Source: Nitrospinota bacterium (lineage in GTDB: Bacteria > JADFOP01). Taken from it: DNA of 6,205 bases. Numbering within the stretch: the first letter of the stretch is position 1; the number at the start of each line of letters is the position of its first letter. Below the pieces are notes generated by a model that ran no database searches, had not been told where the DNA came from, and saw only the letters and a list, made by a program, of their open reading frames with translations. The stretch covers positions 1 through 6,205 of the forward strand of contig JADFOP010000066.1 of the NCBI GenBank assembly GCA_022562795.1, written 5' to 3'. Shown here piece after piece: positions 38-4,846 of this stretch. The translations under genes were made by a program, and so were the position numbers.

Positions 38-1360
38 ATGGCGCCAATGAGAGATTCGACGGCGGAATTGGCTGAGTGGGTGCGCGATGTCGGTCAGCGA
101 ACCTTTGACTTAGTCTCAGATCTGGATGACGAACAGCTTATGGGCCCCCGCATTCCGATCATAAACCCCCTTCTTTGGGAGATCGGGCATATGGCGTGGT
201 TTCAAGAAAAATGGATCCTGCGAGATGTCTGCAAACAAAAGCCTATTCGAGGCGACGGCGACTCTCTTTGGGATTCCATCGCTATACCACACGATACTCG
301 GTGGGACCTACCGCTCCCCTCTCGCGAGGAGACCTATGCCTATATGCGCGAAGTGAGTGACAGGGTGATCGACCAGCTTCTAAAGGGTAAGCCCAGCGAG
401 GAGTTGATCTACTTCGTCCGATATACCGTCTTCCATGAAGACATGCACTCCGAGGCGCTAACCTACGCTCGGCAGACCCTAGCATACCCGCCGCCAAAGT
501 TCTCCACCGACGCCGGCCCGCGCACAGCCGAGACCGATGGCGGGTCGCTGCCCGGCTACGTCGAGCTCCCCGGCGGGGAGTTTATGCTGGGAGCTAGCCG
601 GGAGGAGCCATTCGTGTTCGACAACGAGAAGTGGGCCCACCCGGTTGAGTTGAAACCATTCGCAATCGCTCGGGCGTTGGTCACTCAGGCCGAATTCGCG
701 GCGTTTGTGGATGACGACGGGTATCTACGCAGGGACCTATGGAGCGAGGAAGGCTGGGAGTGGCGAGAGCGAGAGGGCGCCACGCACCCGGTCTACTGGC
801 AGCGGGAGTCGAGCGGCGAATGGCTCCGTCGGCATTTCGATAATTGGGTAAGGCTTGAGCCGCACCTTCCAGTAATACACGTCAACTGGTTCGAGGCGGA
901 GGCCTACTGCCGCTGGGCTTCTTGCAGGCTTCCAACCGAAGCCGAATGGGAGGCGGCGGCCGCCCTCGACCCCGATCGGGAAGGCGAGGGCCCCACCTCA
1001 AGGAAATCCCGCCTCCCGTGGGGAGATGAGGCTCCAAATCCGAAACGCGCGAACCTGGACTGGGATGCCATGGGGTGCATCGACGTGGGAGCGCTTCCGG
1101 AGGGCGACAGCGCCTTTGGGTGCCGGCAAATGCTCGGAAACGCGTGGGAGTGGACCAGCTCCACCTTTCTTCCCTATCCGGGCTTCGAGATAGACCCGTA
1201 CAAAGAGTATTCCGAGCCCTGGTTTGGAACTCGTAAGGTCCTGCGGGGAGGTAGCTGGGTGACCCGCTCCCGAATGCTTCGCAACACATGGCGCAATTAT
1301 TACACGCCGGACCGTCGCGACGTGTGGGCGGGATTCCGTACCTGTGCGCTCGACCAATGA
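38..1360 (+). CDS. senA: SenA-like selenoneine synthase (EgtB-family nonheme iron enzyme)
   Basis: Probable cytoplasmic iron enzyme that couples a selenosugar to hercynine (trimethylhistidine) using O2, the last committed step to selenoneine. The 440-residue protein has the EgtB layout: an N-terminal DinB-like helical domain (about 8-150) and a C-terminal FGE-sulfatase/C-type-lectin-like domain (about 172-437). The iron triad is visible as His51 (in WEIGHMAWFQEKW) and His133/His137 (in FHEDMHSEA), close to the H51/H134/H138 numbering of mycobacterial EgtB. The wording around these histidines (NPLLWEIGHMAWFQ, ARQTL) is what I associate with SenA rather than EgtB, and the next gene is SenB-like, which is the main reason for this call. 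The start has a modest AAAGG at 24-28, nine bases upstream; Met4 at 47 is an alternative start. The stop overlaps senB by four bases. An EgtB-type sulfoxide synthase for ergothioneine is the main alternative. Confidence 0.85.
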   Translation: MAPMRDSTAELAEWVRDVGQRTFDLVSDLDDEQLMGPRIPIINPLLWEIGHMAWFQEKWILRDVCKQKPIRGDGDSLWDSIAIPHDTRWDLPLPSREETYAYMREVSDRVIDQLLKGKPSEELIYFVRYTVFHEDMHSEALTYARQTLAYPPPKFSTDAGPRTAETDGGSLPGYVELPGGEFMLGASREEPFVFDNEKWAHPVELKPFAIARALVTQAEFAAFVDDDGYLRRDLWSEEGWEWREREGATHPVYWQRESSGEWLRRHFDNWVRLEPHLPVIHVNWFEAEAYCRWASCRLPTEAEWEAAAALDPDREGEGPTSRKSRLPWGDEAPNPKRANLDWDAMGCIDVGALPEGDSAFGCRQMLGNAWEWTSSTFLPYPGFEIDPYKEYSEPWFGTRKVLRGGSWVTRSRMLRNTWRNYYTPDRRDVWAGFRTCALDQ

Positions 1361-2328
1361 AAATCAGTCTCGTCACACCTGCGCCGGCCCGCTCAAGGAA
1401 GGGAAACCGTGTGACCGCGCTCCGGTGGGCCCGTATATTGCGCGAGCTCGGCCACCGTGTGAACATCGAGCAAGCGTACGAGGGCCAGCGATGCGACCTG
1501 CTCGTGGCCCTACACGCACGTCGCACCCACGCCTCTCTGGTCCGTTTTCGGCTCAAGCACCCCGATCTGCCAATCGTTCTCGCGCTTACCGGGACCGATC
1601 TCTACGGCGACATTCATACCGATCCATCGGCTCAGGAGTCGCTGGAGTTGGCCTCGCGGCTCATTTTGCTCCAGCCGATGGGCGCTGATGCCCTGCCAAA
1701 GCACCTCCGAGGGAAGGCCAGGGTTATCTATCAGTCCGTTAGGAAACCTCCAGGAACCTTCGTCCCTAAAAAGAGCGTCTTCGAGGTATGCGTGCTCGGC
1801 CACCTCCGCCCCGTCAAGGACCCGTTCCGCGCCGCCCAAGCCGCCCGCCTTCTCCCCCCCGCTTCGAAGATACGGGTGGTTCAAGTTGGGGCTGCCCTCA
1901 GCGAAGAGATGGAGAAGAAAGCCCGTGCTGAGGAAGCATCCAATCCACGGTACCGCTGGCTGGGGGAGCTCCCCCGCTGGAAAGCCCTCCGCCTCCTCGC
2001 CCGAAGCAGGCTTCTGGCGCTCAGCTCCAAGATGGAGGGGGGCGCGAACGTCGTCTCCGAGGCTCTCGTCTGCTCGGTGCCCATAGTCTCGTCGCGGATT
2101 TCTGGATCTATCGGCATCCTCGGGGCCGACTACCCCGGCTATTTTCCAACCGGAGACACGAAAGCGCTGGCAAATCTTTTGGAGCGCGCCGAGGGAGACG
2201 CCGATTTCTACGAGACCCTCAAAGCATGGTGTAACGGCCTGAGGCATCTCGTAGAGCCCGCCAACGAGCGAAAAAGCTGGGAGAGCTTGCTTGAAGAGAT
2301 TTGTGGCGGCGGGAGGGTTCCCGTATAA
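1357..2328 (+). CDS. senB: SenB-like selenosugar synthase (TIGR04348 family, GT4 fold)
   Basis: Probable cytoplasmic enzyme that makes a selenosugar (1-seleno-N-acetylglucosamine type) from selenophosphate and a UDP-sugar, forming the carbon-selenium bond used by SenA. The 323-residue protein begins MKISLVTPAP, then GNRVTALRWARIL (16-28), LVALHARR (49-56) and LALTGTDLY (75-83), which I recognise as the TIGR04348 signature. The second Rossmann-like half has VLGHLRPVKDP (146-156) and a GT4 E-x7-E motif, Glu227 and Glu235, in MEGGANVVSEAL. The ATG at 1357 is preferred over an upstream in-frame start at 1288 because it matches the family N-terminus and gives the classic ATGA overlap with senA. 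No clear Shine-Dalgarno precedes it, so translation is probably coupled to senA. Family and pathway role are well supported by sequence plus neighbour. The exact sugar is inferred from characterised SenB proteins. Confidence 0.88.
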   Translation: MKISLVTPAPARSRKGNRVTALRWARILRELGHRVNIEQAYEGQRCDLLVALHARRTHASLVRFRLKHPDLPIVLALTGTDLYGDIHTDPSAQESLELASRLILLQPMGADALPKHLRGKARVIYQSVRKPPGTFVPKKSVFEVCVLGHLRPVKDPFRAAQAARLLPPASKIRVVQVGAALSEEMEKKARAEEASNPRYRWLGELPRWKALRLLARSRLLALSSKMEGGANVVSEALVCSVPIVSSRISGSIGILGADYPGYFPTGDTKALANLLERAEGDADFYETLKAWCNGLRHLVEPANERKSWESLLEEICGGGRVPV

Positions 2329-2352
2329 AGCCCTCTTCGGACGGGTTTCTTT
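2328..2352 (+). terminator. Probable intrinsic terminator after senB
   Basis: A stem beginning at the last base of the senB stop codon pairs 2328-2335 with 2340-2347, with one bulged C at 2342. The loop is TTCG closed by a C-G pair, a very stable tetraloop. A short T-rich stretch (TTTCTTT, 2346-2352) follows. The position directly behind senB fits a transcript end. The T-tract is interrupted, so termination may be partial and read into the DUF971 gene. Confidence 0.5.
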
Positions 2353-2388
2353 CCATCAAGGTATTTGATAGCCTTCTGCCTGCCTTTT

Positions 2389-2394
2389 AAGGAG
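2389..2394 (+). promoter_or_regulatory. Shine-Dalgarno site of the DUF971 gene
   Basis: AAGGAG lies nine bases before the ATG at 2404. It decides the start: the open frame extends upstream to 2365, but an initiation there would put this site inside the gene. Confidence 0.75.
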
Positions 2395-2403
2395 CAATCT
2401 CGC

Positions 2404-2850
2404 ATGAAATCCCCCGATCCAGCTAATACGCCCTTAAAGATTCAACGGCTTGCCGAGGAGCAGACGCTTCGGGTCGAATGGGCCGACGAGCACATCTGCG
2501 AGATGCGCTACGACTATCTTCGCCGGGCCTGCCCATGCGCAACCTGCAACAAGGATCGGGGTGAGGCCACAAAGGGCCTTCGAGTGGTGACCGGAGAGAC
2601 CGACCGCTCCTCTCTCCAGATCGATGAGATTAGCCTCGTTGGAACCTATGCCGTCAAGCTGGCCTGGAGTGACGGCCACGACACCGGCTTCTATTCCTAT
2701 CGTTTCCTTCGGGCACTCTGTCCCCACGACGGAGGTGGCGCTGAAGCGATCCGGTTCGAGACATTCCGGGATTTTCGAGATCTACTTCGACAGGAGGGTA
2801 TGGAGGACGAAGAGCAAGGAGAGCCGAGTGGAGAGCCCCCTCGGGGCTAA
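2404..2850 (+). CDS. DUF971 / gamma-butyrobetaine hydroxylase-like N-terminal domain protein
   Basis: Small soluble protein of unknown function, 148 residues, consisting of one DUF971 domain (about 11-130) and an acidic, proline-rich tail. The domain is the zinc-binding N-terminal module of gamma-butyrobetaine hydroxylase and also occurs at the C-terminus of Mrp/HCF101-type iron-sulfur carriers and as single-domain proteins. Cys43, Cys45 and Cys48 (RRACPCATC) with His92 (SDGHDTGFYSY) match the 3-Cys/1-His zinc set of human BBOX1. No oxygenase domain follows, so it is not a hydroxylase by itself. It starts 75 bases after senB on the same strand, with its own ribosome site and a probable terminator between, so membership of the sen operon is uncertain. 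Its end lies 29 bases from the convergent zinc-ribbon gene. Family assignment is firm, role is not. Confidence 0.88.
   Translation: MKSPDPANTPLKIQRLAEEQTLRVEWADEHICEMRYDYLRRACPCATCNKDRGEATKGLRVVTGETDRSSLQIDEISLVGTYAVKLAWSDGHDTGFYSYRFLRALCPHDGGGAEAIRFETFRDFRDLLRQEGMEDEEQGEPSGEPPRG
2834..2848. repeat. Short GC inverted repeat at the end of the DUF971 gene
   Basis: AGCCCC and GGGGCT flank a three-base loop, a six-pair hairpin that runs into the stop codon. No T-run follows on either strand, so it is not a typical intrinsic terminator. It could protect transcript ends at the convergent junction, but that is a guess. Confidence 0.35.
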
Positions 2851-2879
2851 GTCCACCACCATCAGTCCAAACAGCAGCT

Positions 2880-3179
2880 CTAGTCTTTAGGGGGTTGGGC
2901 CCGTTGGGCGTCGAAGCAGGGACGGCAGTAGACCGGCCGGTCGGTTACGGGCTCGAAGGGCACCTGAGTTTGCGTCCCGCAGCCGGAGCAGACGGCGTCA
3001 TGGAGCTGGCGTGGCTCTCCCCGGCCCCGACCGTGGGCCAATTTGCGCTCCGCCCGACACGCCTTGCAGCGCTTGGGGGCGGAGAACCCCCGCTCCTGGT
3101 AATAGGACTGCTCCCCGGCGGTGAAGGTGAAGGTCTGCTTGCAATCCTCGCACGCTATGAGTTGATCCTGGGACTCCAT
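2880..3179 (-). CDS. Small double zinc-ribbon protein (zf-trcl plus CxxC-x17-CxxC)
   Basis: A 99-residue, charged, soluble protein with no signal peptide or membrane segment. Two cysteine modules are visible. The first (8-43) has C10-x2-C13 and C38-x2-C41 around FTFTAGEQSYYQERGF, the pattern of the probable zinc-binding domain family (zf-trcl). The second (62-90) has C64-x2-C67 and C85-x2-C88 with exactly 17 residues between the pairs and the VPFEPVTDRPVYC wording of the CxxC-x17-CxxC family. A basic linker (HGRGRGEPR, 49-57) joins them. Such proteins are common in environmental bacteria and are presumed to bind nucleic acid or protein through zinc; no function is established. The start has GAGG about 13 bases upstream, rather far. 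It is transcribed towards the DUF971 gene, probably from its own promoter in the 370-base gap upstream. Confidence 0.85.
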   Translation of the reverse strand: MESQDQLIACEDCKQTFTFTAGEQSYYQERGFSAPKRCKACRAERKLAHGRGRGEPRQLHDAVCSGCGTQTQVPFEPVTDRPVYCRPCFDAQRAQPPKD

Positions 3180-3201
3180 TGTTGTAGTGTGTCCTCTTTT
3201 T

Positions 3202-3214
3202 GCCGGGGCCCGGC
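3202..3214. repeat. GC palindrome just upstream of the zinc-ribbon gene
   Basis: GCCGGG-G-CCCGGC is a perfect inverted repeat with one central base. On the minus strand it is followed by AAAAAGAGGA, so the hairpin would sit next to the presumed ribosome site of the zinc-ribbon gene. It might be an operator or a leader hairpin. It has no T-run in the right place to be a terminator. Confidence 0.35.
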
Positions 3215-3330
3215 GACATCAACCCGCAGAAAACGGCGAATCTCGTCTGAAACTGCGACCGGAGAGCCTAGAGACTACGCGCTCAAGTCCGGCAGTTCAC
3301 TCAGAGCAGATTGGCGGGTTCGGTGCGCTA

Positions 3331-3358
3331 ATAATATTACGGCCCCTCGTGGTTTGAA
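3331..3358 (-). promoter_or_regulatory. Possible sigma70-type promoter for the zinc-ribbon gene
   Basis: Read on the minus strand, TTCAAA (3353-3358, four of six to TTGACA) is followed after 16 bases by TATTAT (3331-3336, five of six to TATAAT). It lies in the only AT-rich patch of the gap. A transcript from here would carry a leader of roughly 145 bases before the zinc-ribbon ATG. The call rests on sequence match only. Confidence 0.3.
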
Positions 3359-3381
3359 CTCCCTCGCTGCTATTGGTTGCA

Positions 3382-3400
3382 GGGGCTTTAGCTAAGCCCC
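3382..3400. repeat. Seven-pair hairpin in the intergenic gap
   Basis: GGGGCTT and AAGCCCC flank the loop TAGCT. No T-tract follows on either strand, so it is not a standard terminator. It lies downstream of the PAS gene and upstream of the possible zinc-ribbon promoter, so it could be an RNA 3' end structure or a protein-binding site. Confidence 0.4.
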
Positions 3401-3549
3401 ACAATACAAGAGCCTTAGGGCCAGCGCAAGGAAAAAACGAGCGGCTACGGCAACTCCTTCTGACCTCCTCACCGAAGGGCTTGCCGACGAAGCGAGCCGT
3501 GCTGCCCTTAATGGCCGGGCGCAACTCATCATTCGGCAGGCGGATTGGC

Positions 3550-3990
3550 CTAGTCTCCCGCCTTGGCCTCTAAGTCGGCCAATCGCTCCCTCAGCGCCTT
3601 TTGCTCCTTCCAACGTTCGGTCACGTCGCGCAAGATGGCCGCGAACCCCATGCGTTCGCCCGCTTCATCGCTAAGGATGGAAATGCTAAATTCCAGGGAA
3701 ATGCGCTCACCATCTTTCCGGACACCAGGAACAGCAAGCAGCTCGGTGCCGTACCGTGTGACCCCGGTCTCTAAGACCTTATGGTAGCCTTCCCAGTGTT
3801 GCTCTCGGAAGCGCTCCGGAATGATAATATCCAAGGATTGCCCCACGGCCTCCCCGGCCGGGTAGCCAAACATCGCCTCGGCCGCTCTATTCCATAGGCA
3901 AATCATCCCGTCTCGGTCAGAAACGACGATGGCATCTTGGGCCTGTTCCAAAACTTGCTGGTGCAACCACGCATCCGCCTTCATAGGCAT
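3550..3990 (-). CDS. Single-domain PAS sensor protein
   Basis: A 146-residue cytoplasmic protein made of one PAS domain (about 12-126) and a short charged helix that could form a coiled coil (126-143, RWKEQKALRERLADLEAK). PAS hallmarks are DAIVVSDRDGMICLWNRAAEAMFGY (split here as 19-29 and 30-43), GEAVGQSL (46-53), RKDGERISLEFSISIL (91-106) and GFAAILRDVTER (115-126). There is no kinase, cyclase, DNA-binding or other output domain, so it probably acts through dimerisation or a partner protein. His65 in PERFREQHW sits where FixL has its haem ligand, but many non-haem PAS domains share this wording. The ATG at 3990 is preferred to Met3 because AAGGAGGG (3999-4006) lies eight bases upstream. It follows livF by 133 bases on the same strand; whether it is co-transcribed is unclear. 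Confidence 0.88.
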   Translation of the reverse strand: MPMKADAWLHQQVLEQAQDAIVVSDRDGMICLWNRAAEAMFGYPAGEAVGQSLDIIIPERFREQHWEGYHKVLETGVTRYGTELLAVPGVRKDGERISLEFSISILSDEAGERMGFAAILRDVTERWKEQKALRERLADLEAKAGD

Positions 3991-3998
3991 ATGGAGAA

Positions 3999-4006
3999 CC
4001 CTCCTT
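3999..4006 (-). promoter_or_regulatory. Strong Shine-Dalgarno site of the PAS gene
   Basis: On the minus strand AAGGAGGG stands eight bases before the ATG at 3990. It is among the best ribosome sites in the window and selects the first of two close ATG codons. Confidence 0.75.
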
Positions 4007-4123
4007 TTATCTGTCCTCCCCTTCGCCTTAAGCCTTTGACAATGCCGTAGAGGAACTATATCAACGCTTTAGAGTCGCCCCTGCGTCACAAAAACATTCC
4101 GACCGAGGGAGCCGAAGTCCGTC

Positions 4124-4846
4124 TCATCCGCCGAGGTAGAGGCGCTTGACCTCTTCGTTGGCCAGCAATCCCGGACCCGTATCGGTAAAGCGGTTACATC
4201 CGAGCTCCAGGACGTACCCCCGGTCGGCAATGCTCAGCGCTTTGGCGGCGTTCTGTTCCACGATGACCAGGGTCGTGCCCATGGAGCGTAGCTCGGCAAT
4301 CTTCTCGAATATAAAGCCGACGAACTTGGGGGCGAGGCCGAGGGAAGGTTCGTCGAGAAGCACCAGATCAGGGTCCATCATCAGCCCCCGGCCGATCGCC
4401 AGCATCTGCTGCTCGCCGCCGCTCATGGTGCCTGCCTTCTGGTAATGCCGCTCCTTCAGGAGCGGGAAGAGGGCGAAGACCTTCTCAAGGCCGGCGCTCA
4501 AGCGGGCGGCGTTTCTCTCCAGGAAGGCGCCCATCTCCAAGTTCTCTAGAACTGTCATGTGGGGGAAGACGATGCGACCCTGAGGCACATAGGCCAATCC
4601 CTTCTGCAGAGCCTTATCGGCCCGAATCCTCGTAATCTCTTCGCCCCGAAACCGGATCTTCCCCCCCAATATTCGGCAGAACCCAACAATGGATTTGAAA
4701 ACGGTCGATTTGCCGGCCCCGTTGGGGCCGATAATAGTTACGACCTCACCTTCATGGACGTAGAGCGAGACCTCATCCAAGACCTTGTTGTTCCCGTAGC
4801 CGGACGAGAGGCCCTCAATCTGGAGGATGGGTTCAGTGCCGTCCAA
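4124..4846 (-). CDS. livF: Branched-chain amino acid type ABC transporter ATPase LivF
   Basis: One of the two cytoplasmic ATPases that power a HAAT-family importer for branched-chain or related amino acids. From the chosen start it has 240 residues, normal for LivF. Motifs are Walker A GPNGAGKST (40-48), Q-loop Gln89 in YVPQGRIVFP, signature MSGGEQQ (141-147, Met in place of the usual Leu), Walker B LVLLDEP (161-167) and the LivF-typical VEQN (196-199) in place of a histidine switch. The C-terminus LLANEEVKRLYLGG is classic LivF. The open frame continues upstream to an ATG at 4927, but that adds 27 residues foreign to the family inside livG. I chose TTG at 4846, with GAGG five bases upstream and a 14-base overlap with livG; ATG at 4873 is the alternative. 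Substrate cannot be read from the ATPase. Confidence 0.9.
   Translation of the reverse strand: MDGTEPILQIEGLSSGYGNNKVLDEVSLYVHEGEVVTIIGPNGAGKSTVFKSIVGFCRILGGKIRFRGEEITRIRADKALQKGLAYVPQGRIVFPHMTVLENLEMGAFLERNAARLSAGLEKVFALFPLLKERHYQKAGTMSGGEQQMLAIGRGLMMDPDLVLLDEPSLGLAPKFVGFIFEKIAELRSMGTTLVIVEQNAAKALSIADRGYVLELGCNRFTDTGPGLLANEEVKRLYLGG

Follow-up and report, generated by a model that had tools for sequence, protein, structure and literature searches.

Selenoneine is an antioxidant that contains selenium, and among the known systems nearest to the genes analysed here is the sen cluster of Variovorax paradoxus, which encodes SenA, SenB and SenC/SelD. Two other enzymes have the fold and the iron triad of SenA. 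One is EgtB, the ergothioneine sulfoxide synthase, for which hercynine is the acceptor too; the other is OvsA, the ovoselenol selenoxide synthase, which uses histidine directly. On this enzyme, PMC13188914 cites Kayrouz 2024.

The window, that is, the whole stretch of DNA analysed here, is 6205 bases long and corresponds to a complete contig (C66) of a draft genome of 2.15 Mb that is 97% complete. It has in common with the Variovorax cluster the SenA and SenB families and the iron triad, and the catalytic Lys and the selenophosphate-pocket residues of Variovorax SenB are also found in its SenB. It differs in that selD is not beside the pair, in the SenB motif EGGAHV, which here reads EGGANV, and in Cys145, where Variovorax has Met; moreover, the host belongs to a tiny uncultured class, and a sister genome adds egtD and a MetE-like gene to the run. 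OvsA presents the same 440-aa architecture as the window SenA, but it forms a derived separate branch and has different residues at 20 positions fixed in SenA. EgtB, in turn, forms a separate clade, uses a thiol donor and has no senB partner.

The senA-senB pair of the window

The two open reading frames are those described in the first-pass annotation and they overlap by ATGA (1357-1360), the ATG at 1357 being the start of senB. In the profile searches for SenA and SenB, both proteins were above the curated NCBIfam cut-offs, and these family matches are far beyond chance. The senA product reached 516 bits with the SenA model NF041186 (cut-off 420) and 97 with the signature TIGR04373 (cut-off 71), and it was below the cut-off of the EgtB model TIGR03440 (351 versus 360 bits). 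Its N-terminal domain is DinB_2-like (Pfam) and bears His51, His133 and His137, a triad already noticed at first pass and confirmed both in the sequence and in a block alignment. The FGE-type C-terminal domain was also recovered, as a match of residues 171-435 to the FGE-sulfatase domain PF03781 (5e-55).

The senB product scored 404 bits with TIGR04348, whose cut-off is 300. Both the SenB N-terminal signature, MKISLVTPAPARSRKGN, and the E-x7-E motif (E227, E235), which had been read in this protein before, are present. The SeP-site residues N17, H53, R56, T78, T80 and R151 are kept, as is the catalytic K154, equivalent to K158 of Variovorax, and the donor motif differs in one residue. The predicted structure (mean pLDDT 95) is superimposable on the solved SenB crystal structures with a TM of 0.91. 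We consider it very likely that senA and senB form a translationally coupled unit for selenoneine.

Table 1. Features of the senA-senB region; positions refer to the window.
Feature	Positions	Strand	Evidence
senA, selenoneine synthase, non-haem iron enzyme, 440 aa	38..1360	+	NCBIfam models, Pfam domains, tree, diagnostic residues
senB, selenosugar synthase (Se-glycosyltransferase, GT-B fold), 323 aa	1357..2328	+	TIGR04348, SeP-site residues, catalytic K154, structure match
senB codon 145, TGC (Cys145); UGA in five Poribacteria senB	1789..1791	+	
GBBH-like_N (DUF971) gene, downstream of senB, likely start ATG 2404	2365..2850	+	PF06155

For the GBBH-like_N gene, a counterpart was not found in the other sen loci compared and no link to the pathway was seen. 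The window also encodes a treble-clef zinc-finger protein, a PAS protein and a partial branched-chain amino acid ABC transporter; the evidence ties none of these remaining genes, GBBH-like_N included, to the selenoneine pathway.

SenA compared with OvsA and EgtB

The model names alone do not settle the identity of senA, because OvsA also passes the SenA model (430 bits against the same cut-off) and was the top match when solved structures were searched with the window protein (6e-101), followed by EgtB and SenA. If senA were an OvsA, selenium would be placed on histidine itself and ovoselenol would be obtained after methylation. This possibility was absent from the earlier reading; we tested it and found it disfavoured. 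Two trees were used, one of 94 rows and a careful one of 28 rows with AU tests. In the larger tree the window protein was located inside SenA, beside that of the congener G001 and those of Poribacteria, with EgtB outside; OvsA was a derived branch elsewhere inside SenA, a sign that members of this family can switch substrate. In the 28-row tree the group formed by the window, G001 and two Poribacteria SenA had a support of 98/95, OvsA was a separate long branch adjoining the SenA of Calditrichota and Anammoxibacter, and a forced grouping of the window pair with OvsA was rejected (p-AU 0.0124). The residues point in the same direction, given that the window protein has the SenA states where OvsA differs (e.g., E134, A140, Y143, H201, N368, P381, and P394) and, at 20 positions at least 90% fixed in SenA, carries the SenA residue and not that of OvsA. 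The branch of Variovorax SenA, long and shortened, accounts for the high rank of OvsA among the solved structures, and egtD is present in the genome and stands beside senA in G001. An OvsA identity, rejected on the tree, the AU test and the residues, is thus very improbable.

Equally hard to sustain is an ordinary EgtB in an organism that makes ergothioneine. The superfamily is common to both enzymes, the EgtB model score is near its cut-off, egtD is available, and the forced grouping of the window pair with EgtB was not formally rejected (p-AU 0.078). However, the free trees separate them, the 28-row tree with a SenA/EgtB split of 100/99, so that the first protein is not inside the EgtB clade, a position that the first-pass annotation had regarded as contrary to its proposal. 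The far higher score with the SenA model, the overlap with senB and the SenA states at N43, E48, H85, W89, M136 (Gln in EgtB) and A140 also argue against EgtB; we rejected this identity on the tree and the model scores, the AU value of 0.078 being a single test. Considered together, the tree and the diagnostic residues assign the window protein to SenA, as opposed to EgtB and OvsA, as far as can be judged from sequence. A last reading is that the pair has decayed or yields another product derived from the selenosugar. In 12 of 21 SenB genomes, chosen for having no SenA nearby, SenA was not detectable at all, so the selenosugar may serve otherwise there, and it is the pair, not SenB alone, that marks selenoneine. 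In the window both frames are intact with their catalytic residues kept, and the identity with the G001 pair, itself intact, is 76-82%, which makes decay or a different product extremely unlikely.

Pathway genes, product and lineage

Selenoneine is the best-supported product, the activity, the reactions and the preference for selenoneine over an analogue being proposed by analogy with characterised homologues. SelD, encoded elsewhere in the genome, would provide selenophosphate, from which SenB would transfer selenium to a UDP-sugar, with cleavage of the Se-P bond by Lys154, giving a selenosugar. EgtD would trimethylate histidine to hercynine. SenA, with its iron on His51/His133/His137, would then join the selenium of the selenosugar and the imidazole of hercynine, and its product would be converted to selenoneine. 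The SenB and SenA steps are postulated by homology to the Variovorax enzymes, in which K158 takes the place of Lys154.

That the organism makes selenoneine or a close analogue, as first proposed, is supported by a SenA that is not EgtB, by egtD, by the run of genes in G001 and by a Sec-type selD. The search for egtD, a gene whose absence, together with a lack of hercynine uptake, had been regarded as contrary to the earlier proposal, located it in single copy on contig C65 (374 bits versus 290.9). Apart from the window SenA, no FGE-domain protein was found in the genome, and therefore no separate EgtB that could compete for hercynine. A selD fragment is placed at a contig end, with an in-frame UGA at the known Sec site. 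No selB match reached the cut-off in this genome, and G001 has selB; an assembly gap is a likely reason, considering that selD is truncated where its contig ends.

In the window assembly, senAB and egtD are on separate contigs, and the ends of C65 and C66, when compared, did not overlap. In G001 (locus L041) the genes run in one direction: egtD (5734-6738), metE-like (6787-7917), senA (from about 7925), and senB (9244-10215). This block (L041, 4700-11130) is flanked by direct repeats of 698 bp, 99.1% identical, which carry copies of the zinc-finger gene, and there is a tRNA-Arg nearby. The arrangement suggests an insertion or duplication of the block, although it could also be an artefact of the assembly. 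On C65, egtD is accompanied by a betaine-type ABC importer (1986-4363, L002) and a MetE-like gene (800-1909). The closest solved binding domain for this importer is EgtUC; its identification as EgtU, the ergothioneine importer, was discarded because two binding-pocket residues said to be diagnostic of EgtU, Gly244 and Phe293, are replaced by Phe and Tyr, as in the glycine-betaine protein ProX. Importer genes of the betaine type adjoin egtD or senAB in L002, L052, L054, L055, L056, L063, L070, L090, and L104.

A scan of genome contigs with the SenB alignment recovered at least 581 relatives, and about 15 phyla, taken from the record titles, are represented among the best 80 of them. In the class of the window, SenA and SenB were found in this genus only, among three genomes examined. 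The suggestion that the lineage may be new for the pathway holds in part: the host class is indeed tiny and uncultured, but with SenB already in those 15 or so phyla one more lineage is to be expected and is not surprising. This is a known pathway with a wide distribution, and the window adds one member, an uncultured lineage among the likely selenoneine makers, for which the sister genome gives a clean genetic context.

The 12 genomes with SenB and no SenA are mostly Planctomycetota, plus two Sulfuricella, and other fates of the selenosugar may exist in them. The Poribacteria loci L047 and L051 were removed from this category, as SenA is elsewhere in those genomes. In one gammaproteobacterial genome (G370, locus L194), relatives of ovsA and senA adjoin.

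In-frame UGA in senB of relatives

An internal in-frame TGA was observed in 7 of 83 SenB sequences, and internal TAA or TAG in none; a search of the phylum added two Poribacteria with TGA, which gives nine genomes in total. In five Poribacteria (L046, L048, L050, L195, and L196) the UGA is at codon 145, a position occupied by Cys in 66 of the 83 sequences, including that of the window. The four hosts with UGA at other positions are two Latescibacterota (L049, L074), where it is near codon 130, one acidobacterium (L052), where it is at about codon 171, and G050 (L042), where it is at codon 4, with Cys there in 19 of the 83. SelB was above the cut-off in the seven TGA-bearing genomes tested, all except G093 and G094.

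A GUCC-N6-GGAY hairpin was located 19 nt past the UGA in all five Poribacteria UGA genes and is suggestive of a SECIS; however, several Cys genes could pair in a similar way, and the fold energies were not below those of shuffled sequences. In some bacteria, SenB is likely to be a selenoprotein, with UGA read as Sec, so that the selenosugar enzyme would itself be dependent on selenium. The UGA at positions 4 and 171, each in a single genome, could be due to sequencing errors or decay. Sec at 145, in the first strand of the UDP-binding domain and nine residues before the catalytic Lys, might sense or relay selenium. A report of SenB as a selenoprotein was not found in our literature search, and neither a glycosyltransferase nor a methionine synthase is mentioned in an inventory of the selenoproteins of prokaryotes from 2026. 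If this reading is correct, the enzyme that makes the selenium sugar would itself be a selenium protein, and residue 145 is the direct site to test it.

In-frame UGA was also noted in four MetE-like relatives (L047, L051, L059, and L090), which are beside egtD or sen genes and have TGA at the position of Cys243 (FHLU); the MetE-like gene of the window genome has Cys there. According to the H-x-C motif, Cys243 is probably a zinc ligand. The MetE-like UGA genes have a SECIS-like hairpin, with a spacing close to that of E. coli fdhF.
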